A stretch of DNA of 47,451 bases from the NCBI GenBank assembly GCA_030017955.1, contig JASEGR010000012.1:1-47451 (forward strand), in the 5' to 3' direction. This stretch comes from Candidatus Eisenbacteria bacterium. GTDB lineage: Bacteria > Eisenbacteria > RBG-16-71-46 > JASEGR01. Below, one piece after another: positions 2,850 through 23,949 of this stretch. The position numbers and the translations under genes are program-made. Each line of letters opens with the position of its first letter. Within the stretch, counting starts at the first letter, position 1. Below the pieces are notes generated by a model that did no database searches, was not told the origin of the DNA, and saw only the letters and a list, made by a program, of their open reading frames with translations.

Positions 2850-2930
2850 GACCGTATTCTAGTCGCAAGTCCTGTGCCAGAGGTTCATCTTTTTCTCCAA
2901 CAGAAAGTTAACTATCTGACTGCCATTGGG

Positions 2931-3240: not shown

Positions 3241-6200
3241 CTACCGCCTCTGCTTTTTTCTGCGGTCTATCCCAAGGACTTTTATCTTTGAGAGGAGGGT
3301 TGGATAGCTGATTTCGAGAGTCCTGGCTGCCTTGGACTTATTCCAGTTGCTCTTTCGCAGCGCGTCGAGTATCACACGGCGCTCGGTTTTCTCAACCTCG
3401 GTTTTCAGTTCACTCCCATTCCCATTCGGCGTGGGCTCCTCGTGCTTTTCGCCAACGTCGTGAGGAAGAAGCCTACTCGTAAGCTCTTCTCCCTCCTCAG
3501 CCAGGACGATCATTCTCTTGACCGTCTTCTCAAGCTCTCTCACATTTCCACGCCACTCATGATCAACCATCCTCGCCATCAGCTCACGCGAGATTCCGCC
3601 AACTTTCTTTCCAAGTTGAACCGCGTGGAGCTTCAGGAAATGGTTCGCAAGTAGGGGGATGTCCTCTTTGCGTTCCCTCAAAGGAGGTACTCTGACCGAT
3701 ATGTCATTCAGCCGGTAGAAGAGATCTTCCAGAAACCCGCCGGCCCTGATTTTGTCTGGGAGATCGGTGTTGGTTGCGCAAATCACTCTCACGTCAACCT
3801 TCTTCCATTTCACGCCGCCGACCGGCCTCATCTCCTGCTTATCGAGGAAATGAAGAAGTTTGCTCTGTACCGCAGGAGTTATCTTCTCGATTTCATCAAG
3901 GAATACGGTCCCTTGATCTGCTTCTTCCAAAAGGCCGACCTTGGTTCTCGTGGCCCCGGTGAATGCTCCATGGACATGTCCGAAGAGCTCGCTTTCAAGA
4001 AGAGGCTCGGGCAAGGCAGCGCAGTTTATCTGAACGAATTTTTTCTCTCTCCTGGGGCTTGCCTCATGCACAACCTGGGCTATTAGGCCTTTTCCGGTTC
4101 CGGTTTCACCCTCAAGCAGGATCGTCGCAGAGCTCGCACTGACTTTTTCCATCATGTTCAGGACTTTGAGCATCTCTGCATCCTGGGTCACAACTCTGTC
4201 GAAGTGCGCGCTGGGGTAAAGTTTCTCTTTAAGAGCCTGGTTCTCCCTGAGAAGGCTCGCCTTTTCCTGTTCGACGAGGGCAACAACTGCAATCGTTGAT
4301 ATGCACGTAAGAATATCTATCTCGCTTTTCCCGAATATTCCCCTGCCGGAGTTCCTTGACCTGTCAACATAGATGATACCGTTCGGACCGGAGAGAAGAC
4401 CTATTGGAAAAGCGATGAAACTCAGAGTACTGGAGAGCTTGTGGTCACCATTCAAGAACCGGTTGTCTTCGAAAGCTCTGGTCGAAATGCGCGGTTTAGG
4501 TTTTCCATCGCCCTCAGAAGGGATGCTTATGAGCGAGAGCACCCTCTCCGACTCAGCCACGCTCATGCCCTTTGTCGCCAGGACTACCCAACCCTTTCCA
4601 TCGGAGCGGCCTGCAAGGAATCCTCTATCCGCCGCCGTCTTTCCAACGGCTGTGGCGAGAATTCCGGAAACAAGAGATTCCGGCGATCCTCCGCCTCCGA
4701 ACAGTCTGTTCATTTCCTCGACGAGGCGAAGCTCGTCTTTTTCCGTGTCGATATGTTTGACGTAGTTCGACTCAATGGCTTTCCTGACGAGGCCGACTTC
4801 TTTCTTCAGTTCATCCTCACCGGAAGTGAGAAGTCTTTCTGCGTGCTCGAGCTCGGTAAGCGCCTCGTCGTTAAGGCCCCTGATGAGGTCTAGTCTCGCA
4901 AGCGAAACAAGGGTCTCCCCAATCCACCCTCGAAGGCCAAGTCCCTTGAGCATTGACAGTGCTTTCTCAAGGTATGTCCTCGCCCTCTCGCCATTCCCTG
5001 CGTCGGCGTTGTCTCCAGTCAGCGAGTCAAGATACAGCCTTCCGGAAAGAAGAAAGGTTTTCGCTAATTCGAACCTGTCGCCGTGTCCCTCGAGGAGTAC
5101 GGCCGCCTTACCCAGGAGCTCTTCACAACCATCCCACGCTCCCTTTCTGCCCAGTGCCAGACCCATGACTCTCAGACAAGTTCCCTCTTCACCATAATTT
5201 GCGGACTCTCTCGTAGCTGAGAGCGAATAGTCGGCACAAGAGAATGCTTCGTCGAGCTCGCCCTTGGCAAGCTTGACCTCAGCCAATCTCCTGCCCACTT
5301 CTCCCACGAGATCTCCCTTGGGGGCAATCTCGTTGGCCAGTTCGAGCGCGCACTCCAGCTTGGCCTCAGCTTCGGCAAGATTCTTTCTCTCAAGCTCAAC
5401 CTCTCCGGCAAACTCCAGGGAAAGAACCTCTTCTCTCCTGTATCCATTCTCGATAGATTTCGCAAGAGTCTCACCAAGAACTGAAAGAGCTCTGTCAAAC
5501 TGTCTTTCTCTGATGAGGATCAGGGAAGCTGCAACCTGTGCCTTTACAACGCCGGCCTTGCCTCCGATATCGGTGAAGATCCTCACGCTTCTATCAAGGT
5601 ACTCTCTCGCGAGGTCCCAGGAGCCGAGTTTCAAATGAACGATTCCCAGGTTGAGCGAGTGCGAGGCAACTTTTGAGTAGTCTCCGGTCCGCTCGCTCAG
5701 ACGCATGGCTTTCTCGAGGAAACCTACTGCCTGTCTGAGTTCACCCAGGTTCTTGTGAACGACGCCGAGATTATTGAGAGCCCTTGCTATTCCCTCGTTG
5801 TCATCAATCCTGCGGAAGGTAGAGAGTGCATTTTCGTAGTATTCTCTTGCCTTCGGGAGCTGACCCATTCTTGTGTGAATGTTGCCAAGATAGAGCTCGA
5901 CGTTTCCAATCTCTTCGTTTTCGCTAGTACCTTTGAGCAGGGCATAAGCTAGGTTCAACGCCCTCAAGCTTCTTGAATACTGCCCCATCTCGGAATAGAC
6001 CGAACCCTGAAGTGCGAAGAGCTTGCCAAGGTCCGGCCCCCTGTCGGAGCGCAAGAGAGACCTGCCCCGTCTCAAATAGGAGAGGGCTCTCGAATAGTCA
6101 CCCTTTTTTCTGTAACAGAAGGCAAGCCTGTGCAGGATGTTTGAAGCTCTCTGAGGATATAAGTGGAGCGAATCCAGCGAGCCGAGTGCTTTTTCGAAAT

Positions 6201-6354
6201 ACTCTATGGCAAGAGCTGTGTTGTCCGCCGCCAGGTGGACTTCTGCAACTCCCTCAAAGGCGTCACCTGGTGTCTCACGGACCGCTTCATTCGCCGCGGG
6301 ATCAACATGAGGCAAACTTCTCTTTTTCCAGTTCTCTTCCATCGGGGGACTCAC
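3241..6354 (-). CDS. TPR-GAF-sigma54 activator (AAA+, Fis-type HTH)
   Basis: A 1037-residue transcription activator. Residues 25-520 are a run of about twelve tetratricopeptide-like repeats. Residues 530-700 look like a GAF sensor. A sigma-54 interaction AAA+ domain follows, with Walker A GETGTGKG near 748 and the sigma-54-contacting GAFTGA loop near 797. A Fis-type helix-turn-helix lies at about 985-1030. It should remodel sigma-54 holoenzyme using ATP at promoters I cannot name. There is no receiver or kinase domain, so signal input is probably protein binding to the TPRs or a ligand in GAF. The first codon is GTG; an ATG four codons on (6342) has GGAG nearby and is an alternative. It lies 42 bp behind the small secreted-protein gene and is probably co-transcribed from the promoter at 6890-6918. 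Confidence 0.85.
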   Translation of the reverse strand: MSPPMEENWKKRSLPHVDPAANEAVRETPGDAFEGVAEVHLAADNTALAIEYFEKALGSLDSLHLYPQRASNILHRLAFCYRKKGDYSRALSYLRRGRSLLRSDRGPDLGKLFALQGSVYSEMGQYSRSLRALNLAYALLKGTSENEEIGNVELYLGNIHTRMGQLPKAREYYENALSTFRRIDDNEGIARALNNLGVVHKNLGELRQAVGFLEKAMRLSERTGDYSKVASHSLNLGIVHLKLGSWDLAREYLDRSVRIFTDIGGKAGVVKAQVAASLILIRERQFDRALSVLGETLAKSIENGYRREEVLSLEFAGEVELERKNLAEAEAKLECALELANEIAPKGDLVGEVGRRLAEVKLAKGELDEAFSCADYSLSATRESANYGEEGTCLRVMGLALGRKGAWDGCEELLGKAAVLLEGHGDRFELAKTFLLSGRLYLDSLTGDNADAGNGERARTYLEKALSMLKGLGLRGWIGETLVSLARLDLIRGLNDEALTELEHAERLLTSGEDELKKEVGLVRKAIESNYVKHIDTEKDELRLVEEMNRLFGGGGSPESLVSGILATAVGKTAADRGFLAGRSDGKGWVVLATKGMSVAESERVLSLISIPSEGDGKPKPRISTRAFEDNRFLNGDHKLSSTLSFIAFPIGLLSGPNGIIYVDRSRNSGRGIFGKSEIDILTCISTIAVVALVEQEKASLLRENQALKEKLYPSAHFDRVVTQDAEMLKVLNMMEKVSASSATILLEGETGTGKGLIAQVVHEASPRREKKFVQINCAALPEPLLESELFGHVHGAFTGATRTKVGLLEEADQGTVFLDEIEKITPAVQSKLLHFLDKQEMRPVGGVKWKKVDVRVICATNTDLPDKIRAGGFLEDLFYRLNDISVRVPPLRERKEDIPLLANHFLKLHAVQLGKKVGGISRELMARMVDHEWRGNVRELEKTVKRMIVLAEEGEELTSRLLPHDVGEKHEEPTPNGNGSELKTEVEKTERRVILDALRKSNWNKSKAARTLEISYPTLLSKIKVLGIDRRKKQRR

Positions 6355-8765: not shown

Positions 8766-9875
8766 GTGCGTCCCCGGAAACAGCAGGGGAACCTTTCGCA
8801 ATCAAGCATGAAACCGGATCGGACAGCGCAGGCGAATACGGACATCCTTGACCTCACTGTCAAGGAGCTCGAGAATCTCCTTGAGTCCCGCGGCTTCGAG
8901 CGGTACCGCGCCAGACAGATTTTCCACTGGATCTATAGAAGGGGCATCACCTCGCCAGACAGGTTTCTGAACTTGCCGCCGACCTTAAGAGATTTCATTA
9001 GGGACGGATTTTCAATCGCAGCAACGGGGCTCGCTGCAACTCTCACGTCGAGTCTTGACGGAACCTGCAAGTTCGTCTTTCGTCTGAGAGACGGCTCTGT
9101 GGTTGAGTCGGTTGCCATTCCCTCCGGCGAAGGCTCCACCTACTGCCTTTCCACTCAGACAGGATGTTCATTCGGCTGCACATTCTGCGCTACTTCAAAG
9201 CTTGGCCGGGGACGGAACTTGACTCCGGGAGAAATCGTCGGCCAACTCCTTGGGATGAGAAAAGAAACCGCTGAGGGGCCCGAAAGGTTTAATGTTGTGT
9301 TCATGGGAATGGGGGAACCGCTCCAGAACTACGATTCAACTATTCGTGCCATAAGGATCATGATGGCGGAAGAGGGTTTCTGTATCTCGCCGAGGAGGGT
9401 CACTGTCTCGACCTGCGGGATCGTCCCTGGAATCCTGAAGCTGGCACGTGAGAAACTCAGGGTCGGGCTTTCGGTTTCACTAAACGCGGCAACCGACTCC
9501 TTGCGGGAAAGACTCATGCGTGTCAACAGGAAGTACCCTCTGGAGCAGCTTGTCTCTGCCCTCAAGGTTTACACCGGGGAGACAAAGAGGAAGGTTACAC
9601 TTGAGTACGTTCTGATCCGGGACGTGAACGATTCAATCGAAGATGCAATGAGACTTAGAAGTCTTGCTGACAGCCTTCAATGCAAGATAAATGTAATTCT
9701 CTATAATACAAACAGCTTCACGACGTTTGAGCCGCCGGGTGAACTGGAGGTTGACAGATTCTTGAAGGTCCTGCTTACCTCCAGGCGCGCAGTGACCCTC
9801 AGAAGAAGCAAAGGCGCAGACATCGGCGCGGCCTGTGGCCAACTGGGCAGCTCGTATCAAAAGGGAAGGCCCTAG
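8766..9875 (+). CDS. rlmN: 23S rRNA/tRNA adenine-C2 methyltransferase RlmN
   Basis: Radical SAM methylase of 369 residues. It methylates C2 of A2503 in 23S rRNA and of A37 in some tRNAs by the ping-pong mechanism. The radical SAM cluster motif CSFGCTFC has its cysteines at 134, 138 and 141. The downstream blocks GMGEPLQNY, SLNAA and the C-terminal RRSKGADIGAACGQL, which carries the methyl-accepting Cys, are all present. The longest start is GTG at 8766; an ATG at 8808 gives a protein beginning MKPDRT and is equally possible, since neither has a strong ribosome-binding site. The histidine kinase gene begins at the base after its stop, so the two are translationally linked. Confidence 0.93.
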   Translation: MRPRKQQGNLSQSSMKPDRTAQANTDILDLTVKELENLLESRGFERYRARQIFHWIYRRGITSPDRFLNLPPTLRDFIRDGFSIAATGLAATLTSSLDGTCKFVFRLRDGSVVESVAIPSGEGSTYCLSTQTGCSFGCTFCATSKLGRGRNLTPGEIVGQLLGMRKETAEGPERFNVVFMGMGEPLQNYDSTIRAIRIMMAEEGFCISPRRVTVSTCGIVPGILKLAREKLRVGLSVSLNAATDSLRERLMRVNRKYPLEQLVSALKVYTGETKRKVTLEYVLIRDVNDSIEDAMRLRSLADSLQCKINVILYNTNSFTTFEPPGELEVDRFLKVLLTSRRAVTLRRSKGADIGAACGQLGSSYQKGRP

Positions 9876-11540
9876 ATGCTGTCGCTTTCTCCTGTCAATC
9901 TTATCTTCTTGAGTCTCGGAGTTGCCGTTCTGCTTATCTTCGCCGGATGGATCGTCTCCGCCCTCAGAATGCCTTTCCGGATAAAGCTCACGCTCGTCGT
10001 CGCCATAGTTGCGCTCTTCCCGTACCTCTCTCTTGCCTTTCTGCTGTCGCGGGAGCTCACAAGAAGTGTCAACATGTGGGAGACTCCCGGCGTGGGACAA
10101 GGATTGAGGAGCTCCCTGGACATCGCGAGGCAGAGCATTGAGGATAAACAGGCTGCGCTTGAGCTTGAATTTCGGAAGTGGTGGTCAGGATCTGACGCGG
10201 AGAAGGCGCTGCGGTCAGCCCGGGGGGGGAGAATTGTTGAGAGCTTGCGGGCCTCTGGAAAGTTTGACTTCGCCGGGGTGTACGGCAGAAACAACCGTGG
10301 GAGCTGGGAGCCCCTTGGGCTGTGGCAGAAAGGAACAGGAAAGCAGCCGCAGATCGCCGGAGTCGAGATTGATTCGCTTCTCTCAGGGAAAATCCCGGCA
10401 ATAGCAAGCGACTCAACGGTCATGGCCGCGAGACTCGAGCCCGGCCCGGGGAGGGATCGAGGTAGGGCCGTCATTGCAGGGAGATTCCTCGATGATGCCG
10501 ACATATTGAGGGCAAAGAACCTTGTAGCCGCCATCCGTGTCTATGACCAGCTGAATATATATAAAGAGCTTTCCAAGAGAGTAGTCTGGATATTCTTTGC
10601 GTTATCCGCGGTCCTTGCTTTGCTGCTGGCAGCTCTTATCGGAAGCCATGTCTCGGGAAGATTGACCGGGCCGCTGAGACTACTCTCTGCCGAGATGAGG
10701 AGGGTCGGAAGTGGAAGCTTCACCGGGGAGATGGCAATAACCAGCCGCGATGAGGTCGGGGAGCTCGTTCAAAGCTTCAACAAAATGGCGAAAGATCTCA
10801 GGCAATACGAACGCGACCTGAAACGAACGGAGAGAATCGCAGCCTGGAAAGACGTGGCAAGAAGGATTGCGCACGAAATAAAGAATCCGCTCACGCCGAT
10901 CAGATTTTCTCTTCAGCGCATAGCGTCGAGGGCTGACCTGCCGGACAAGAAGGAAAGCTCAGAAATCGGAAAGGAAGTCCAGGCAATTCTCGGTCAGCTT
11001 GTGACTCTTGAATCCATGGCATCAAGCTTTTCGAGTTTTGCGAAGCTTCCCGAACCTAAACTTGAGCCATTCCAGATTGAGTCCTTGCTTGTGGACATTC
11101 TCAAGGCGGCGGAGAAGCAGGATGTCCGTGTCGAGTACGAGGGCCCGGCGGCCCTGCCGGCCATCAATGTTGACCCGACTCTCATGAGGGTCGTCTTCAA
11201 CAACATAGTGAAGAATGCCCACGAAGCCATGCCGGAAGGAGGCAAGCTCAACGTCGCAACCGAAGTCGTCGGGGGAAAGGGCGGCCAGGATGGAGAAGGA
11301 TACCTGGCAATCAGGTTTACTGACACGGGAAAGGGAATCCCTGACGAAATTCTCGAGAAGATCTGGAATCCATACTTCACGACCAAGACAGACGGGACTG
11401 GACTTGGACTTTCCATTTGCCTCAAGATAGTCGGGGAGCACCGCGGTCGAATGGAGATTACGAGCAAGGTGGGAGAAGGGACTGCCGTTCTGGTCCTGCT
11501 GCCCCTTGCGGAGACAGGCAGGATGGAAAATGGAGTTTGA
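9876..11540 (+). CDS. NtrY-like sensor histidine kinase
   Basis: A 554-residue membrane kinase. Two hydrophobic segments at the N-terminus (about 8-30 and 37-58) and a third near 228-252 enclose a periplasmic sensor region of about 165 residues with no domain I recognise. A HAMP domain follows at about 250-305. The DHp helix carries the phosphoacceptor in RRIAHEIKNPLTPIRFSLQRI (His333), which is characteristic of NtrY. The catalytic domain has N (VKNAHEAM), G1 (DTGKGIP) and G2 (GTGLGLS) boxes. The ATG directly follows the rlmN stop, with AGGGAAGG upstream. The response-regulator gene overlaps its 3' end by 11 nt, so the pair almost certainly forms a two-component system. Confidence 0.9.
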   Translation: MLSLSPVNLIFLSLGVAVLLIFAGWIVSALRMPFRIKLTLVVAIVALFPYLSLAFLLSRELTRSVNMWETPGVGQGLRSSLDIARQSIEDKQAALELEFRKWWSGSDAEKALRSARGGRIVESLRASGKFDFAGVYGRNNRGSWEPLGLWQKGTGKQPQIAGVEIDSLLSGKIPAIASDSTVMAARLEPGPGRDRGRAVIAGRFLDDADILRAKNLVAAIRVYDQLNIYKELSKRVVWIFFALSAVLALLLAALIGSHVSGRLTGPLRLLSAEMRRVGSGSFTGEMAITSRDEVGELVQSFNKMAKDLRQYERDLKRTERIAAWKDVARRIAHEIKNPLTPIRFSLQRIASRADLPDKKESSEIGKEVQAILGQLVTLESMASSFSSFAKLPEPKLEPFQIESLLVDILKAAEKQDVRVEYEGPAALPAINVDPTLMRVVFNNIVKNAHEAMPEGGKLNVATEVVGGKGGQDGEGYLAIRFTDTGKGIPDEILEKIWNPYFTTKTDGTGLGLSICLKIVGEHRGRMEITSKVGEGTAVLVLLPLAETGRMENGV

Positions 11541-12864
11541 GCTCGATTCCAGGAAGATTCTGATCATCGATGATGAAAGGGAAGTGGGCGAAGCAATATC
11601 ACGTTTCCTCGGGGACAGAGGATGTCTCTCGGTCGTCTCAAAGACGGGCAAAGACGGCCTGAGAGCCCTCGAAGAGTGGTCCCCTGACTGTATACTCCTG
11701 GACGTGAAACTCCCCGACGCAGACGGAATTGATCTTCTCACGATGATAAAGAGGCAGAGGGAAATCCCCGTGGTCATGATTTCCGGTCACGGCACAATCG
11801 ATCTTGCGGTGAGCGCGATAAAGTTGGGCGCATATGATTTTCTGGAGAAACCCATTCACCCGGAACGGCTCCTTGTGGCGATTTCAAACGCCCTGGAGCT
11901 TTTTTATTTCAGGAAAGAGAAACGGCCAGAGCTCATCGGGAAATCAAACCCCATGCTTGAATTGCTTGAGTTCGTGAAGAAGGTAGGGCCGACCGAAAGC
12001 AAGGTTCTCATTACAGGCGAAAATGGCACCGGAAAGGAAGTTATCGCAAGGACCATCCACGAGCATAGCAGACGGAGAGATGGCCCTTTTGTGAAACTCA
12101 ACTGTGCCGCCATTCCGGAGCACCTTGTCGAGAGCGAGCTTTTTGGGCACGAGAGGGGCGCCTTCACCGGCGCCGTTGCGCAGAAAAAAGGAAAGCTCGA
12201 GGTGGCAACTTCGGGCACACTCCTGCTCGATGAAGTAGGGGATATGAGCTTGCAGGCACAGGCAAAACTCCTGAGAGTCATCGAATCCGGAGAACTGGAA
12301 AGAGTCGGGGGGACGAAGACTGTTGAATTCGATGTCAGACTCCTTTCTGCCTCGAACAAGAATCTGACGAAGGAAATAGAAAAGGGAAACTTCAGGGAAG
12401 ATCTTTATTTCAGGTTGAATGTCGTTCCGATCCACGTTCCTCCGTTGAGGGACAGAAAGGACGATATCCCACTTTTTGTGGAGCACTTCCTTGAGGAGTT
12501 CGCAAGGACAAACGAGAAGAAAAGGAAGTCCATCGAGCCGGGGGCTTTGGACCTTCTGTGCTCATGCCTCTGGCCGGGGAATGTCAGGGAGTTGAAGAAC
12601 TTCATTGAGAGACTAATGATAATGACCGATTCGGACACAATCACCACCGGGGACGTCGAAAGGCTCCTTCCCGGGAAAGAGGCAGACCGGAGAACTCCGC
12701 CATTGAATTCGGAGCTTGCGTCAAGAGAGAAAGAGGTGATTCTCAACTACCTCAAAAGCGCAGACTGGAATGTCTCGCTTGCCGCCTCAAAGTTGGGCAT
12801 AGACAGAACAAGCCTCCACAGGAAAATGAGGAAGTACGGCGTAACCAAGAAGCACGACAAGTGA
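11530..12864 (+). CDS. NtrC-family sigma-54 response regulator
   Basis: A 444-residue response regulator with three domains. The receiver has acidic IDDE near residue 13, the phosphoacceptor Asp58 in LLDVKLPDADG, and Lys in EKP. The AAA+ domain has Walker A GENGTGKE (163-170) and the sigma-54-binding GAFTGA (210-215). A Fis-type helix-turn-helix occupies about 400-438. A TTG eight codons upstream keeps the frame open, but the ATG at 11530 is chosen because AGGATGG lies just before it and the receiver begins directly after. Its start overlaps the kinase gene. A well-formed sigma-54 promoter lies 133 bp past its stop codon, making the following barrel-protein gene the obvious target. Confidence 0.92.
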   Translation: MEFELDSRKILIIDDEREVGEAISRFLGDRGCLSVVSKTGKDGLRALEEWSPDCILLDVKLPDADGIDLLTMIKRQREIPVVMISGHGTIDLAVSAIKLGAYDFLEKPIHPERLLVAISNALELFYFRKEKRPELIGKSNPMLELLEFVKKVGPTESKVLITGENGTGKEVIARTIHEHSRRRDGPFVKLNCAAIPEHLVESELFGHERGAFTGAVAQKKGKLEVATSGTLLLDEVGDMSLQAQAKLLRVIESGELERVGGTKTVEFDVRLLSASNKNLTKEIEKGNFREDLYFRLNVVPIHVPPLRDRKDDIPLFVEHFLEEFARTNEKKRKSIEPGALDLLCSCLWPGNVRELKNFIERLMIMTDSDTITTGDVERLLPGKEADRRTPPLNSELASREKEVILNYLKSADWNVSLAASKLGIDRTSLHRKMRKYGVTKKHDK

Positions 12865-12885
12865 GGCAGGAGCTCCACACAGTGT

Positions 12886-12895
12886 CGCAATTGCG
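12886..12895. promoter_or_regulatory. Perfect 10-bp palindrome, candidate activator site
   Basis: CGCAATTGCG sits about 100 bp upstream of the sigma-54 promoter at 12997, a suitable enhancer distance for an NtrC-family activator. The extended context TGTCGCAATTGCGCAT is partly dyad-symmetric. Binding by the regulator encoded just upstream is inferred. Confidence 0.4.
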
Positions 12896-12996
12896 CATCG
12901 GAAAACAAGTCTCCAACCGGCACATACATTTCATGAGTTCTGACCAATACGTTGCACCTGAACAAGTTTCAGACCTTGCCTCAAGGTGATCCCGAC

Positions 12997-13012
12997 TGGC
13001 ACGCCCCATGCA
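12997..13012 (+). promoter_or_regulatory. Sigma-54 (-24/-12) promoter
   Basis: TGGCACGCCCCATGCA matches the RpoN consensus TGGCACG-N4-TTGCA at all but one position. It has the essential GG (12998-12999), 10 nt, GC (13010-13011) spacing. Transcription should start near 13023, leaving a leader of about 78 nt before the ATG at 13101. It lies between an NtrC-family activator and the barrel-protein gene it would drive. Confidence 0.7.
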
Positions 13013-13100
13013 AAACTGGCTATCGCAGAACTTTTTTCGAGTTCAGATCGGGGTTTTCGGGAATGAAATCGGGATCGTTGAGAAAAGAATGCGAGGCACC

Positions 13101-14543
13101 ATGAAACAGAAAACGTTTGATCTCCGGGCAACATTATTCCTTGGTTCTCTTATCTTGATGACGGTTGCCTTGACGGCCGGAGCTTCACTTGGAGCTGTCA
13201 GATATGACCTCTTTTCTCTGGCAGTGGAGGAGGAAGCTCCAGCGCCGGACACTACTCGCTCAATGGAAACTGAAAGCCCCGTCGAGAGCCGGGCGTCGGA
13301 CACAAGCTATACCGTGGAGACTGAGAAAGTCGTGGAAATCAACATAGATGATAACGGTGTTGTCGTCAGCGAGTATGTGCCCCAAAAAGAAGAATCTGCC
13401 GAATACGAGAATGCTCCTGACGCCTCAGAACCACGCAGACACGTACGTGTCGCGCGTGAAAAGCACGTAGTGAGGAAAGCCAAGTTCGACAGCGATTTGG
13501 ATCTGAGCTTTGAGAGGGTGAACGGGTGGCTTCTCTATATGAAGGGTGATTACAATCCGAAGGCCGAATTCTATCCTTTCGTTGACCTCCAGGCGGGATA
13601 CAGTTTTGGTAGGGACGCGTGGGAGTACAACGTCGGCCTCGAGCAGCCGCTGACACCCGGGCGGGTCATCTCTATGGGCGGAAAGATGTACAGAAAGACT
13701 GAGACCTTTGATGACATGATTCCGGATGACGAGAACATGTTCTATGCAATATGCGTAAAAAAGGATTTCAGGGATTACTTTCTCCTGGACGGGTATTCGA
13801 CGTTCGCCAAGATTTCTGCTTTTCACAATACAATCACCTGCGAGTACAGGAACGACTCTTATAATCCGCTTCTCAAAGTAACCGACTGGAGTCTCTTCCG
13901 CCGCAGAATCAATTTCAGACAAAACTGGGAGATCGGGGACACTACGTTTGCGATTGATGAGGGAACAATGAAAAGCCTGGTCGTCTCCTGGGAGTACGGA
14001 TGGCCGGAAATGCTGGACGAAGACAGAAAAGGTCCGGGCTACTTGTATAGAGACGAAGACAGAAGAGGCCCAGGCTACTGGTATAGAGTTGAGTGGGAGA
14101 GGGCGGGAGATCGCTTTGGAGGAGATTTTGGTTTTGAGAGATACCTGGCGGACCTGAGGACATATCTTCGCCTGAGCCCGAGCCAATCGTTTCTTCTCAG
14201 GGCGGAGATTGGAGGAAATCCAAGGGGCAACCTTCCCCTCCAGAAACAATTTTTTGTCGGCGGGATAGGGACACTCAGGGCGCATAGTCTCAAGGAATAC
14301 AGGGGAAACGAGATGCTCCTCTTCAACGCGGAGTATGCGATAGATGTGTCATCGTTCCTGGCCCTGTTCTTTGTCGACACGGGTAAATCGTGGACGGGCC
14401 GAAATGATTTCCGGAATCAGAAACTCGCCCTTGACGCCGGAATAGGCCTTCTCAAGGGGCACACCGGCGTCTATTTCGCAAAGAACCTGAGAGTTGAAAA
14501 TTCTCCGATTGTCGTGAGCTTCAGATTCAACCGTACTTTCTAG
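13101..14543 (+). CDS. Omp85/BamA-type outer-membrane barrel protein
   Basis: A 480-residue exported protein. The N-terminal signal peptide covers about residues 1-32 (MKQKTFDLRATLFLGSLILM onward). Next comes a Pro/Glu/Thr-rich acidic linker (about 40-135), then strands of a barrel ending in Phe. The segment FFVGGIGTLRAHSLKEYRGN followed by LLFNAEY resembles the loop-6 and late-barrel signature of the surface-antigen (Omp85) family. POTRA domains are absent, so it is not BamA itself and its cargo is unknown. The frame is open further upstream to 13008, but ATG 13101 has GAGG 5 nt away, opens the signal peptide, and lies downstream of the sigma-54 promoter. Residues 306-329 hold a tandem 12-residue duplication. 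Confidence 0.72.
   Translation: MKQKTFDLRATLFLGSLILMTVALTAGASLGAVRYDLFSLAVEEEAPAPDTTRSMETESPVESRASDTSYTVETEKVVEINIDDNGVVVSEYVPQKEESAEYENAPDASEPRRHVRVAREKHVVRKAKFDSDLDLSFERVNGWLLYMKGDYNPKAEFYPFVDLQAGYSFGRDAWEYNVGLEQPLTPGRVISMGGKMYRKTETFDDMIPDDENMFYAICVKKDFRDYFLLDGYSTFAKISAFHNTITCEYRNDSYNPLLKVTDWSLFRRRINFRQNWEIGDTTFAIDEGTMKSLVVSWEYGWPEMLDEDRKGPGYLYRDEDRRGPGYWYRVEWERAGDRFGGDFGFERYLADLRTYLRLSPSQSFLLRAEIGGNPRGNLPLQKQFFVGGIGTLRAHSLKEYRGNEMLLFNAEYAIDVSSFLALFFVDTGKSWTGRNDFRNQKLALDAGIGLLKGHTGVYFAKNLRVENSPIVVSFRFNRTF
14016..14087 (+). repeat. 36-bp in-frame tandem duplication
   Basis: Two consecutive 36-bp units (14016-14051 and 14052-14087) inside the Omp85-type gene encode DEDRKGPGYLYR and DEDRRGPGYWYR. 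Only a few bases differ, so the duplication is fairly recent or kept by selection. It probably lengthens a surface loop. Confidence 0.85.
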
Positions 14544-14562: not shown

Positions 14563-15228
14563 ATGACGCACAGAGTTAAGGGCCTCTTCGTTGCGGCTCT
14601 GAGTCTCTCAATCCTGCTCATGTCATTCCTGCCCGGCGCGGCACTGGCTTCTTCAGTGATAGAGATACAAGGTGTGCGGGACGTTGACGGGACTCTTATT
14701 GCCGAGTTCTCTCTGAAAGGCATGCTTTCGGGAAGGACGCGGGAGATGCTCGGGAGAGGCATGCCTGCCACACTCACTTACAGAATTGAGCTCTGGAAAA
14801 CAAGGGCGGGATGGTTTGACAGGCTTGTTACTTCAAAGTCGTGCCAGTATAGAGTTAACTATGACGTGTGGCAGAATGCGTTTCTCGTTGAGACAGAAGG
14901 GGCTTCCCCAAAGAGGTTTCAGGACATCCCCCAAGTTGAAACGGAATGTTGTCTCGGTAAGAAGTTCTCCATCGTCCCTCTGGCGGAGCTTGAGAAAGGG
15001 AGCAGGTATTTTCTCATAATCAATGCTACCTTCAAGCCTTTGAGCTTGGAGGAGATCACTCAGATGCAGGGATGGCTGAGCGGAGAGCTTAGGCACAGAG
15101 GCGAGCAGACGGGCGGTGGAATTCCCAGATATCTTCTCGGCCTCGTGGTTAATATCGCGGGACTGGGAGACAAGTCTGTGCTGGCGAGGACAGGGGGGTT
15201 CAGTCTGTCAGACCTAAGACCGCAGTAG
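14563..15228 (+). CDS. DUF4390-family exported protein
   Basis: A 221-residue protein with a signal peptide (residues 1-29, ending ALAS). The following sequence, with VIEIQGVRDVDGTLIAEFSLKG, LTYRIELWKTRAGWFD and a YRVNYDVWQNAFLVE block, fits DUF4390. Its biochemical role is unknown. In several proteobacteria DUF4390 genes sit next to ntrY/ntrX-type regulators, and here too it is two genes from such a pair. It follows the barrel-protein gene by 19 bp with AAGGAG before its ATG, so it is probably part of the sigma-54-driven transcript. It converges on the next minus-strand gene. The function may concern the periplasm or outer membrane; that is inference. Confidence 0.7.
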   Translation: MTHRVKGLFVAALSLSILLMSFLPGAALASSVIEIQGVRDVDGTLIAEFSLKGMLSGRTREMLGRGMPATLTYRIELWKTRAGWFDRLVTSKSCQYRVNYDVWQNAFLVETEGASPKRFQDIPQVETECCLGKKFSIVPLAELEKGSRYFLIINATFKPLSLEEITQMQGWLSGELRHRGEQTGGGIPRYLLGLVVNIAGLGDKSVLARTGGFSLSDLRPQ

Positions 15229-15260: not shown

Positions 15261-16262
15261 TCACCTGACTAGAAGCACTCGCTCTACTTTGTACGACTGA
15301 GGAGTGGAGAGTCTGGCAAAGTAGATACCTGCAGGAAGAGCCCGGCCGTTTGAGTCATTTCCATCCCAGAACACTCTCATCTGCCGGTTGGCCCTCTGGT
15401 TTTCGACAAGCGTTTTGACCAACCTTCCACTTACATCGAAAATCCTTACACTCACATCCCGAGATGACTTTGTTTCAAAAGTGAATGTGGTGCCGTCCTT
15501 CACGGGGTTTGGACTCAACTTCAGCGAAAGCTGCTCGTCATTATTGCTAACGAGAGAAAGGAAAAAGCTCTTGAGCCCGGCCACGTCTTCGGGCGGGGGG
15601 ACCGATCCGTTCAGCGCGAGTTCACCTTCGCTTGTCGCATCCGAGAAGAGCATCCTGAAATCCTCCGCAAACACTTCTCGCGGCCGGTTGTCGTGCGCAG
15701 AATTCTCGTTGTATTCGCTTTCATCCGATATTTGTCTCAAGGCCTTGTATTGGGCCCAAAGATCTTTTCTTGTCTCCGGCATGTACTGTCTTTGAACTAT
15801 GTGTCCCATTTCGTGCGAGGCAACATACTCAATCGTCTCCTGCGAGTATTCCCTTACCCCAGGGGAAAGGAAGATGGCATTGCCTGTGGCGGAGGAGCCT
15901 TGCGTTTCCGCTCTGGGGTAAGGGAGGATGAATATGTCAACTGAAACGCCTTCGAGTGGGAACCTGATTTTCCTAAGGGCATCAACAACCCGGGAAACGT
16001 TCATCGTATGGAATGCTCCATCACCTTTGTTGGGGATTCTCGCGTCCATAACATCAGTGATGAGCTCCCACTTTCTCAGATTTCTGGTGAGGTAAAGAAC
16101 TCCGTCCTCACTGGCGGTCATTCCATTGAGTATCTCGTCCGGGGTATGTATCGCAATTCTGTTGTAAGGGTCAACCGTCGAAGGGAAAACAGGAGTAGGG
16201 CGGAGGAAGATCGCAAGAAGTATTATGACAATGTACAAAGCTGTTTTTCTTGGGTTTCTCAT
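15261..16262 (-). CDS. Secreted HExxH metallopeptidase-like protein with sorting domain
   Basis: A 333-residue exported protein. The signal peptide is residues 1-28. A zinc-peptidase signature HEMGH lies near residue 150 (context VASHEMGHIVQRQY), and an acidic PREVFAEDF block about 50 residues later could give the third metal ligand. From about 250 the sequence is a FlgD-like/type IX-style C-terminal domain: LSPNPVKDGTTFTFE, then VRIFDVSGRLVKTL, FWDGNDSNGRALPAGIYFARL and a terminal VERVLLVR. Such domains direct export and anchoring in Bacteroidetes. The exact peptidase family is not clear to me. Its ATG overlaps a TGA in another frame of the preceding gene (ATGA at 16262-16259). Confidence 0.75.
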   Translation of the reverse strand: MRNPRKTALYIVIILLAIFLRPTPVFPSTVDPYNRIAIHTPDEILNGMTASEDGVLYLTRNLRKWELITDVMDARIPNKGDGAFHTMNVSRVVDALRKIRFPLEGVSVDIFILPYPRAETQGSSATGNAIFLSPGVREYSQETIEYVASHEMGHIVQRQYMPETRKDLWAQYKALRQISDESEYNENSAHDNRPREVFAEDFRMLFSDATSEGELALNGSVPPPEDVAGLKSFFLSLVSNNDEQLSLKLSPNPVKDGTTFTFETKSSRDVSVRIFDVSGRLVKTLVENQRANRQMRVFWDGNDSNGRALPAGIYFARLSTPQSYKVERVLLVR

Positions 16263-17562
16263 TGAAGTGCTCCTCCGGCAACAGACTGAAGCAGGTTATG
16301 TGCCAGAAATATTGGCGGGCCAGGAATTTCGAGGTCCGGCACAGCTTGGAGGCGGGAGTCCCGGGGCACTTGCTGTAACTCTTTGAAATCAAAAATGTTA
16401 GAGGTTGGGTTTGAGGCTTCGAGAAAAGCCGGCGGGAGATGCGCTTGGAACAAAGAGAGAGCTGCGCATCGGTAATTCGGAATCTTTCTGGGAAATATTC
16501 CGCAAAGAGCTGGGGGATTTCACACGGAGGGCGGAGACAGGTCCTGGGTCCTGACACAAGCTTTCCGGAATGCCGCCCGCTACCTTCGCAGAGATACATT
16601 CTCATTATTCTTCCATTCCCGAGGAAGACTATTTCGTCCCTGGCGGTCGTTCTTCTCCAGTTTGGAGTGTGATCCTGATCGTCGGTAGAGGTTATCCGAA
16701 CTCTCTTCGGGAACTGCTGTGTTATGTCTGTGATGCAGAGATCGAAAGAGGTGCCTTCACCGTCGTTCTTTGTTTCGTAGATTATTCTTCTTCCATCCGG
16801 AGCCCATGAAGGATAGTCGTCGTAGTAATCGTATATCCAGACTTTATCTTGGGGCGTTACTTGCTCTGCGGTCCCTTTTTTGAAGTCATAGACCCAGATT
16901 GATCTGCCGGCCAGTGACCGGCCCCACAGATCAGAATTCTCCATGGAGAAAGCAATCCTGGATGTATCAGGAGACCAGGATGGGTTGGACATAGTGAGAG
17001 GTGAACTGTGGAGCGTCACCGGAAGTGCAAGGTGCGAAGTATTCAGAATATGGAGCGCCGGATATCCGGTCACGGCATCAAAAGTAGTGAATGCGATCGT
17101 CCTGTTATCCGGTGACCAGGTTGGAGCGTAGCCATATGCGACGGGCCGCGCATCTCTTCCGGTCACCCCGTTTGCAACGTAGATCTTTGGTAATTCTCCT
17201 CTGGCGATTCCCCACCCGAGAGCATAGACAACCTGCATTCCGTCATATGACCATTCGATGTCGTGGACATTATCGCCGAGATCAATGAACTTCATGGCGG
17301 TTTCGGCTTCAATGTCCCCCGGCTTGTGGTAGTCAACTTTCCAGATGTTCGTATTTCCGTCATCCTTGTTGGATTCAAAACCTATGAGGCTGCCTCCTGG
17401 AACCCAAACCGGATTTCCCAAATAGCCTGAGGGGTCAAGCTTCTTGACCAGCCATGGTTGTTCAGTGCAAGACAAGGCCTCGCTATCGACTGAGGTGGGC
17501 GGCTTCTCACAAGAGACAGAGAGACAGACAAGAATCAGTAGAGGAATGGCTTTCCGCGTCAT
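16171..17562 (-). CDS. TolB-like (PD40/WD40-type) lipoprotein, 3' frame doubtful
   Basis: The first 320 residues are convincing. A lipoprotein signal ends at LSVSC (Cys18), and several beta-propeller blades follow with the TolB/PD40 signature: PTWSPDNRTIAFTT, PSWSPDTSRIAFSM, PSWAPDGRRIIYET. It is probably an envelope protein. After about residue 330 the translation becomes Cys/Ser/His-rich, loses propeller character, and runs 92 bp into the start of the next gene. A different frame, open from 16519 to 16259, ends in TGA overlapping the next gene's ATG and reads more like protein (a stretch ending QSVAGGALQ). I suspect a frameshift or sequencing error between about 16600 and 16450. No clear ribosome-binding site precedes the ATG. 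Confidence 0.7.
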   Translation of the reverse strand: MTRKAIPLLILVCLSVSCEKPPTSVDSEALSCTEQPWLVKKLDPSGYLGNPVWVPGGSLIGFESNKDDGNTNIWKVDYHKPGDIEAETAMKFIDLGDNVHDIEWSYDGMQVVYALGWGIARGELPKIYVANGVTGRDARPVAYGYAPTWSPDNRTIAFTTFDAVTGYPALHILNTSHLALPVTLHSSPLTMSNPSWSPDTSRIAFSMENSDLWGRSLAGRSIWVYDFKKGTAEQVTPQDKVWIYDYYDDYPSWAPDGRRIIYETKNDGEGTSFDLCITDITQQFPKRVRITSTDDQDHTPNWRRTTARDEIVFLGNGRIMRMYLCEGSGRHSGKLVSGPRTCLRPPCEIPQLFAEYFPERFRITDAQLSLCSKRISRRLFSKPQTQPLTFLISKSYSKCPGTPASKLCRTSKFLARQYFWHITCFSLLPEEHFNEKPKKNSFVHCHNTSCDLPPPYSCFPFDG

Positions 17563-23566: not shown

Positions 23567-23575
23567 AACTATCGG

Positions 23576-23939
23576 TGCGGGGTGGAGCAGTCTGGTAGCT
23601 CGTTGGGCTCAATCCGCAGAGTCAGCTGTGAATTCGCTTTCCGCCAATCAGCGTGATACGTTGAATCTGACTCTGCATGGGCTGCGCGCGAAGAAACTCG
23701 TGCGCGACGACCTGTCAAAGTCGGGGAAGCCCCTGGCGGGGTAACCCCGAGCCAAGCTCTGAAAGTCGTAAGACCAACGGAGAAGGTGTAGAGACTTGAC
23801 GGCAGGCACCCTATCGGCGACGTCAACGGCCGAGGGTGAAGGGAAAGTCCAGACCACAAACTGGTTCGCCCAGACAGCGAAAGCTGTAGTGGCAAGCATA
23901 ACCCAAAGGTCGCTGGTTCAAATCCAGCCCCCGCTACCA
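23576..23939 (+). tRNA. Initiator tRNA-fMet (CAU), interrupted by a group I intron
   Basis: The two exons, 23576-23609 and 23897-23939, join into a 77-nt tRNA with encoded CCA. The acceptor TGCGGGG (23576-23582) pairs with CCCCGCT (23929-23935), leaving a U1-U72 mismatch. The anticodon stem is TTGGG (23603-23607) / CCCAA (23902-23906), with three consecutive G-C pairs. A non-pairing 1-72 position and three G-C pairs next to the loop are the two hallmarks of bacterial initiator tRNA. The joined loop CU-CAU-AA has anticodon CAU at 23897-23899. The T arm is GCTGG-TTCAAAT-CCAGC. The insertion lies after U33, so translation initiation would depend on splicing of this RNA unless another copy exists. 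Confidence 0.93.
23610..23896 (+). ncRNA. Group I self-splicing intron (Azoarcus-like, IC3-type)
   Basis: A 287-nt intron. The 5' exon ends in U and the last intron base is G, as group I splicing requires. GCAGAGTCAG (23615-23624) pairs perfectly with CTGACTCTGC as an extension of P1. GGGCT just after it can act as the internal guide. P3 is CCTGTC (23711-23716) with GGCAGG (23801-23806), followed by the J3/4 AAA. P5 is CCCC/GGGG. The Q-like GAGCCAAG, the R-like GGTGTAGAGACTT (23785-23797) and the S-like AAAGTCC (23844-23850) are present, with P7 GACT/AGTC. P8 is CACCC/GGGTG. P9 has an ACAGC-GAAA-GCTGT hairpin. There is no room for a homing endonuclease, so it is an immobile minimal ribozyme. 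Confidence 0.9.
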
Positions 23940-23949
23940 ACCTTCCAAG

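Follow-up and report, generated by a model that had tools for sequence, protein, structure and literature searches.

Does the gap between a two-component regulator gene and an outer-membrane barrel gene in Candidatus Eisenbacteria, an uncultured phylum, hold the control element of a self-contained circuit, in which the regulator switches on its own neighbour through sigma-54? We discuss this question for a contig of 47,451 nucleotides, hereafter the window, for which an initial annotation had proposed a -24/-12 promoter with an enhancer-like palindrome upstream, an NtrY/NtrC-like gene pair directly before it and an Omp85-type barrel gene and a DUF4390 gene after it. On the whole, our analysis makes it a good bet that an NtrX-like activator on a tandem enhancer fires sigma-54 transcription of an operon made of the barrel and DUF4390 genes.

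The cluster, all of it on the forward strand, begins with rlmN (8766-9875, start codon uncertain), a 23S rRNA/tRNA methyltransferase gene whose product scores 341.7 bits against TIGR00048 (cut-off 290) and carries the Pfam domains RlmN_N and Radical_SAM. The sensor kinase gene at 9876-11540 comes next, encoding membrane segments, a periplasmic region of about 170 aa, HAMP (260-310), HisKA (326-391) and HATPase (433-545). Among the features of NtrY (periplasmic sensor, HAMP, PAS, HisKA and HATPase) only PAS is missing, and since the interval between the HAMP end at 310 and the HisKA start at 326 leaves no room for it, the kinase is named NtrY-like. Its AlphaFold2 model has a mean pLDDT of 80.9 and shows a long helix followed by a four-strand sheet in residues 73-204; in the fold search for a PDC-type sensor domain, as in PlrS, between the transmembrane helices, the matches are filled by kinase domains. 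The regulator gene (11530-12864) encodes a receiver, an AAA+ domain and a Fis-type HTH (Pfam Response_reg, Sigma54_activat and HTH_8), that is, the architecture of NtrC-type enhancer-binding proteins, and GAFTGA, the loop contacting sigma-54, is read in its translation. Its top NCBIfam model is NtrX (NF051870) with 407.7 bits, and because the equivalog cut-off of 600 is not reached, we call it NtrX-like. The Pfam domains agree with the pair that had been described before the promoter, now refined to NtrY-like/NtrX-like.

The two genes on the other side of the promoter also bear the names first given to them. The gene at 13101-14543 (alternative start 13089) encodes a barrel protein of the Omp85 superfamily with a signal peptide (Pfam Omp85, E 2.6e-7). 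In its AlphaFold2 model, built with 23 homologues, a confident barrel of about 16 predicted strands begins at residue ~128, and among solved structures the model matches TamA, Sam50 and BamA with Z of about 20-23.1, best over residues 124-480. The protein is alike to these in its Omp85-type barrel, but it carries no POTRA domain: its N-terminal ~100 residues are predicted to be disordered, with residues 29-124 mostly at pLDDT below 50 and without POTRA-like secondary structure. In this it differs from the BamA/TamA insertases, which have at least one POTRA before the barrel. The PlrP-like DUF4390 gene (14563-15228; PF14334, E 1.8e-13, 50.7 bits against a cut-off of 27) follows after an intergenic gap of 19 bp, and its product appears to be exported, since reading its translation by eye shows an N-terminal signal peptide. 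This gene is presumably co-transcribed with that of the barrel.

The candidate promoter, TGGCACGCCCCATGCA at 12997-13012 on the forward strand, lies between ntrX and omp85. It had been called near-ideal, and we find it to differ from the consensus TGGCACGNNNNTTGCW at a single specified position (position 12, A for T), with GG at -24 and GC at -12 separated by 10 bp. It is the sole instance of the exact pattern TGGCACN6TGCA in the window and the top sigma-54-like match in the ntrX-omp85 gap (1/301 with dinucleotide shuffles, which is the floor of the test). Genome-wide, the hexamer pattern shows no enrichment, with 12 matches against 9 for the reversed control, so that the case for the promoter is built on conservation and not on the sequence match alone. 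The initial annotation had made its reading depend on an rpoN gene, and one is found in the own genome on contig C25 (PF04552, E 2.2e-63); altogether rpoN is found in 38 of the 39 genomes searched. From sigma-54 geometry, transcription is predicted to start near 13023, 12 nt downstream of the C in the -12 GC. An ORF apparently starting at 13008 begins within the -12 box; the barrel gene in fact starts at 13101 (or 13089), which leaves about 66-78 nt between the predicted transcription start and the start codon.

The palindrome CGCAATTGCG (12886-12895) is located where it had been reported, with about 106 bp between its centre and the -24 element downstream; as an enhancer in its own right it does not stand, the lone 10-mer being at chance level. 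It forms the middle part of one half of a longer element composed of two 18-bp dyads with starts 21 bp apart: dyad A, TGAGGCAGGAGCTCCACA (12862-12879), which overlaps the ntrX stop codon, and dyad B, TGTCGCAATTGCGCATCG (12883-12900), which contains the palindrome and agrees with the consensus at 11 of 14 positions. Both are recognised by a matrix trained on eight sites of the related family f8, with the window sequence excluded. Over the whole window the matrix ranks position 12862 first and position 12883 sixth, and the tandem pair scores ~18.1-18.3 against 8.8 for the runner-up pair; none of 5000 region shuffles is as high (best shuffle 13.1), and the other stretches examined in the own genome never exceed a tandem score of 9.2. 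The dyads in the window are weaker than those of f8 (10.2 and 7.9 bits against 18.6-23.0). The comparison supports a tandem pair of 18-bp dyads, rather than the 10-bp palindrome, as the putative enhancer.

It is of interest whether such an arrangement is common in the phylum. A protein search of 39 genomes, the own genome among them and the other 38 from its class, gives relatives of the barrel in 32, and DUF4390 is present in 35 of 47 genomes of the phylum. The order rlmN-ntrY-ntrX-omp85-DUF4390 is seen in nearly all complete neighbourhoods fetched (families f1, f3, f4, f6, f7, f8 and f11), while in f5 it can be followed up to the contig end; an opposite-strand gene for a secreted protease is often the next after the cluster. 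A -24/-12 site between ntrX and omp85 is present in f1, f5 (TGGAACAGAGCTTGCA) and f8, and weakly in f4 (CGGCATGAAGCATGCT). The f8 sites are of the type TGGTAYGN4YTTGC, for example TGGTATGGGGCTTGCC and TGGTACGGCCATTGCG, and 16 of 18 f8 loci have a clear one, a count that takes in two loci judged by eye, L126 (CGGAATGCGGCTTGCC) and that of genome G038 (L216), in which the junction is split between contigs and AGGCACGCGCATTGCA comes after the dyads. The remaining two are L236, doubtful (GTGCACGGAGTTTGCA), and L235, without a site; both belong to the six f8 genomes fetched later, the other four of which are clear. Shuffle p-values of the positive loci are about 0.003-0.04, each for one locus, and the related genomes are not independent. 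No -24/-12 site is found in the gaps of f3, f6, f7 and f11, where omp85 mostly starts at or soon after the ntrX stop; f6 is the family with the nearest barrel homologues, yet it has neither promoter nor dyads. Upstream of rlmN or ntrY there is no consistent sigma-54 site.

The dyads are retained together with the promoter. In the f8 gaps, the dyad YGTSGCG-N4-CGCSACR is found mostly 80-132 bp upstream of the -24 element, and its centre is often 26-30 bp past the ntrX stop; several f8 loci have the same tandem pair at a spacing of 20-22 bp, as in the window (21 bp). In the held-out f8 loci L237-L240 a dyad lies 89-120 bp upstream of the -24/-12 site. The f8 dyads were chosen for being dyads, which biases the f8 p-values; the fair tests are the window, f5 (L130), L126, L138 and the later-fetched loci, most of which pass, L235 and L236 being absent or unclear. 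The recognition helix of NtrX is shared by f1 and f8, DRTSLHRKMRKYG in the window being nearly identical to DRTNLHRKMRKYG in f8, and is different in f3 and f6, the families without the sites. L138 is a natural test on the level of sequence: here ntrX and omp85 are 2.3 kb apart, the promoter (TGGTACGGCGCTTGCG) directly precedes omp85, a dyad-like sequence is found about 83 bp upstream of this promoter, and the promoter has thus been retained at the barrel gene after the two genes were separated. The initial annotation had suggested looking for the arrangement in relatives, and promoter and enhancer are indeed conserved across families. Preservation in so many distant relatives makes it very likely that the control element is real. 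One f8 locus, L139 (G036), has GAFTHA instead of GAFTGA in ntrX while promoter and dyads look intact; the change may be one that is tolerated, or else an error of sequencing or assembly.

A search for further sites of the same kind gives little. The own genome has no exact match to the f8 dyad pattern, and genome-wide counts of dyads or tandem pairs are about those of reversed controls in the GC-rich relatives, so counts alone identify no regulon. The other exact matches to the connector in the own genome (contigs C25, C29, C39 and C92) lie in long ORFs without a strong promoter downstream; that in C92, when read, falls in a coding region, and we reject them all as further sites. In the f8 genome that holds L138 (G027), a tandem match (L205) has a weak -24/-12 match ahead of an HD-type ORF. 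For most f8 genomes, as for the window genome, no combination of enhancer and promoter was found that is better than the one between ntrX and omp85. This, together with an activator that keeps GAFTGA and a conserved promoter and enhancer, supports the self-contained circuit first suggested for the locus.

The window contains several other features. A second -24/-12 site, TGGCACATAACCTGCT (16290-16305, reverse strand), lies 28 bp before the start of the gene at 15261-16262 (reverse strand), which encodes a secreted HExxH protease with a FlgD/Por_Secre_tail end. About ten f8 relatives have the protease gene with a site of the type TGGCAY...T[CG]GC, mostly at -38 to -59. Since these sites are generally without strong NtrX dyads, another activator probably drives the protease promoter. 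A sigma-54-like site, TGGCACAGGACTTGCG (2864-2879, reverse strand), is located about 360 bp behind the end of the gene for a TPR-rich sigma-54 activator (3241-6354, reverse strand) and has the G+C-rich inverted repeat CGGAGGGGGGACCTCCG after it; the next gene starts about 575 bp further on. The site may possibly drive a sigma-54-dependent small RNA or a long leader. In addition, the region of about 23575-23940 on the forward strand contains a group I intron (Rfam RF00028 at 23663-23870, 51.6 bits against a gathering threshold of 50) by which the anticodon loop of a tRNA gene seems to be split, with the flanks ...TTGGGCTCA and TAACCCAAAGGTCGCTGGTTCAAATCCAGC...; the tRNA resembles the initiator tRNA-Met CAT, and ARAGORN misses it in its split form.

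The sequence comparisons above show the identities of the genes, the promoter and the tandem sites, and also that these sites are conserved and linked to the barrel gene. In the mechanism that we propose, the kinase would sense the periplasmic or envelope state and phosphorylate the regulator; that an envelope signal is the input of the circuit is our inference. The phosphorylated regulator would oligomerise on the tandem dyads, which are two helical turns apart, and its AAA+ domain would reach from ~100 bp upstream, by a DNA loop, to the sigma-54 RNA polymerase at 12997-13012, where its GAFTGA loop would act and the promoter would melt. A single transcript from about 13023 would then make the barrel and the small periplasmic DUF4390 protein, the latter of which may act back on the kinase.

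That the activator bound at the dyads is the NtrX-like protein itself is likewise something we infer. A real sigma-54 promoter might be driven by another activator, the dyads binding that protein or serving the NtrX-like protein as a repressor, and this we hold to be improbable. Other sigma-54 activators do exist in the genome, such as the TPR-rich AAA+-HTH protein at 3241-6354, the published NtrX motifs (CAAN2-5TTG, GCAN9TGC) are unlike this dyad, and NtrX can repress (PMC9223101); however, the dyads lie 20-30 bp past the ntrX stop in the window and in several f8 loci, in L138 they remain next to the barrel gene, and from family to family they go with the recognition helix of NtrX, whereas the protease gene nearby has a conserved sigma-54 promoter without them. 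It would be more surprising still if the -24/-12 match were a chance one in a window of 47 kb and the barrel gene owed its transcription to read-through from rlmN-ntrY-ntrX or to a sigma-70 promoter not seen by us, a reading to which we give very little weight. It is opposed by the position, spacing and order, which are equal in several families, and by the retention of the promoter after gene separation; in its favour are the near-equal frequency of the hexamer pattern and its reversed control, the non-significant 10-bp palindrome, and the families f3, f6, f7 and f11, which seem to manage without the site.

The part of our explanation that concerns feedback is less firm. The promoter and enhancer may work as proposed while DUF4390 and the barrel are mere effectors, for example in outer-membrane maintenance, with no action on the kinase; the chance of this is only a little below even, and it competes solely with the feedback. 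In Bordetella, PlrP, a DUF4390 protein, is genetically a periplasmic third component that restrains the phosphatase of an NtrY-type kinase (PMC13001219). The kinase in those data has a PDC domain, and feedback in this phylum is drawn by analogy, both of which favour pure effectors. On the other hand, DUF4390 lies beside NtrYX-type genes in beta- and gamma-proteobacteria (PMC13001219), as expected of a signalling partner, and the same co-location runs through this phylum and is found in three contigs of Deltaproteobacteria/Desulfobacterales (L047, L053 and L055), where DUF4390 is on the 5' side of the NtrX-like gene, which extends the link beyond the beta- and gamma-proteobacteria. DUF4390 is probably itself part of the signalling system, so the sensor may receive feedback from the circuit; that DUF4390 would favour NtrX~P and so give positive feedback is speculative. 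We regard as doubtful, but worth stating, a further version in which the operon makes its own sensor arm: DUF4390 and the POTRA-less barrel would link the outer membrane to the NtrY-like kinase, and sigma-54 transcription driven by NtrX would close a phylum-wide positive feedback loop, with the barrel as part of the input too.

For NtrYX-type systems, the native signal and the targets are for the most part unsettled, and DUF4390 has been tied to them only lately, in beta- and gamma-proteobacteria. From the present locus one can predict, for a different phylum, just one target operon, which is next to the regulator gene and whose promoter and enhancer are located; the DUF4390 partner would be among the genes that the regulator controls, which gives a compact and testable model of one promoter, two operator sites and four proteins. 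As far as the open literature shows, an operator motif is here predicted for the first time for an NtrX-like protein from beyond the proteobacteria. Classical NtrC/sigma-54 units such as glnA have tandem dyads ~100 bp upstream of a -24/-12 promoter and a GAFTGA activator; the window has the same layout with another dyad sequence and another target, an outer-membrane barrel. The PlrP-PlrS-PlrR system, in the order rsmB-plrP-plrS-plrR(-trkAH), is alike in that the gene for an exported DUF4390 protein neighbours those of an NtrY-like kinase and an NtrX-like regulator and that an RNA methyltransferase gene is on the 5' side of the cluster, but no Omp85 gene and no sigma-54 promoter is described for plrP (PMC13001219); in the window order, rlmN-ntrY-ntrX-omp85-DUF4390, the DUF4390 gene stands behind the regulator's own sigma-54 promoter. 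In Rhodobacter sphaeroides, NtrYX likewise controls envelope genes through a regulator of NtrX type, with several dispersed targets, the dcw cluster and ntrYX itself (PMC7240162), and a suggested motif GCAN9TGC, as cited in PMC9223101, whereas in the window one adjacent target operon is found, with the dyad YGTSGCG-N4-CGCSACR. An NtrYX-like system with an adjacent sigma-54 operon, a POTRA-less Omp85 and a controlled PlrP-type partner was not met with in the open-licence literature searched, and as far as that literature shows, parts that are each of a known kind are joined here in a new combination.
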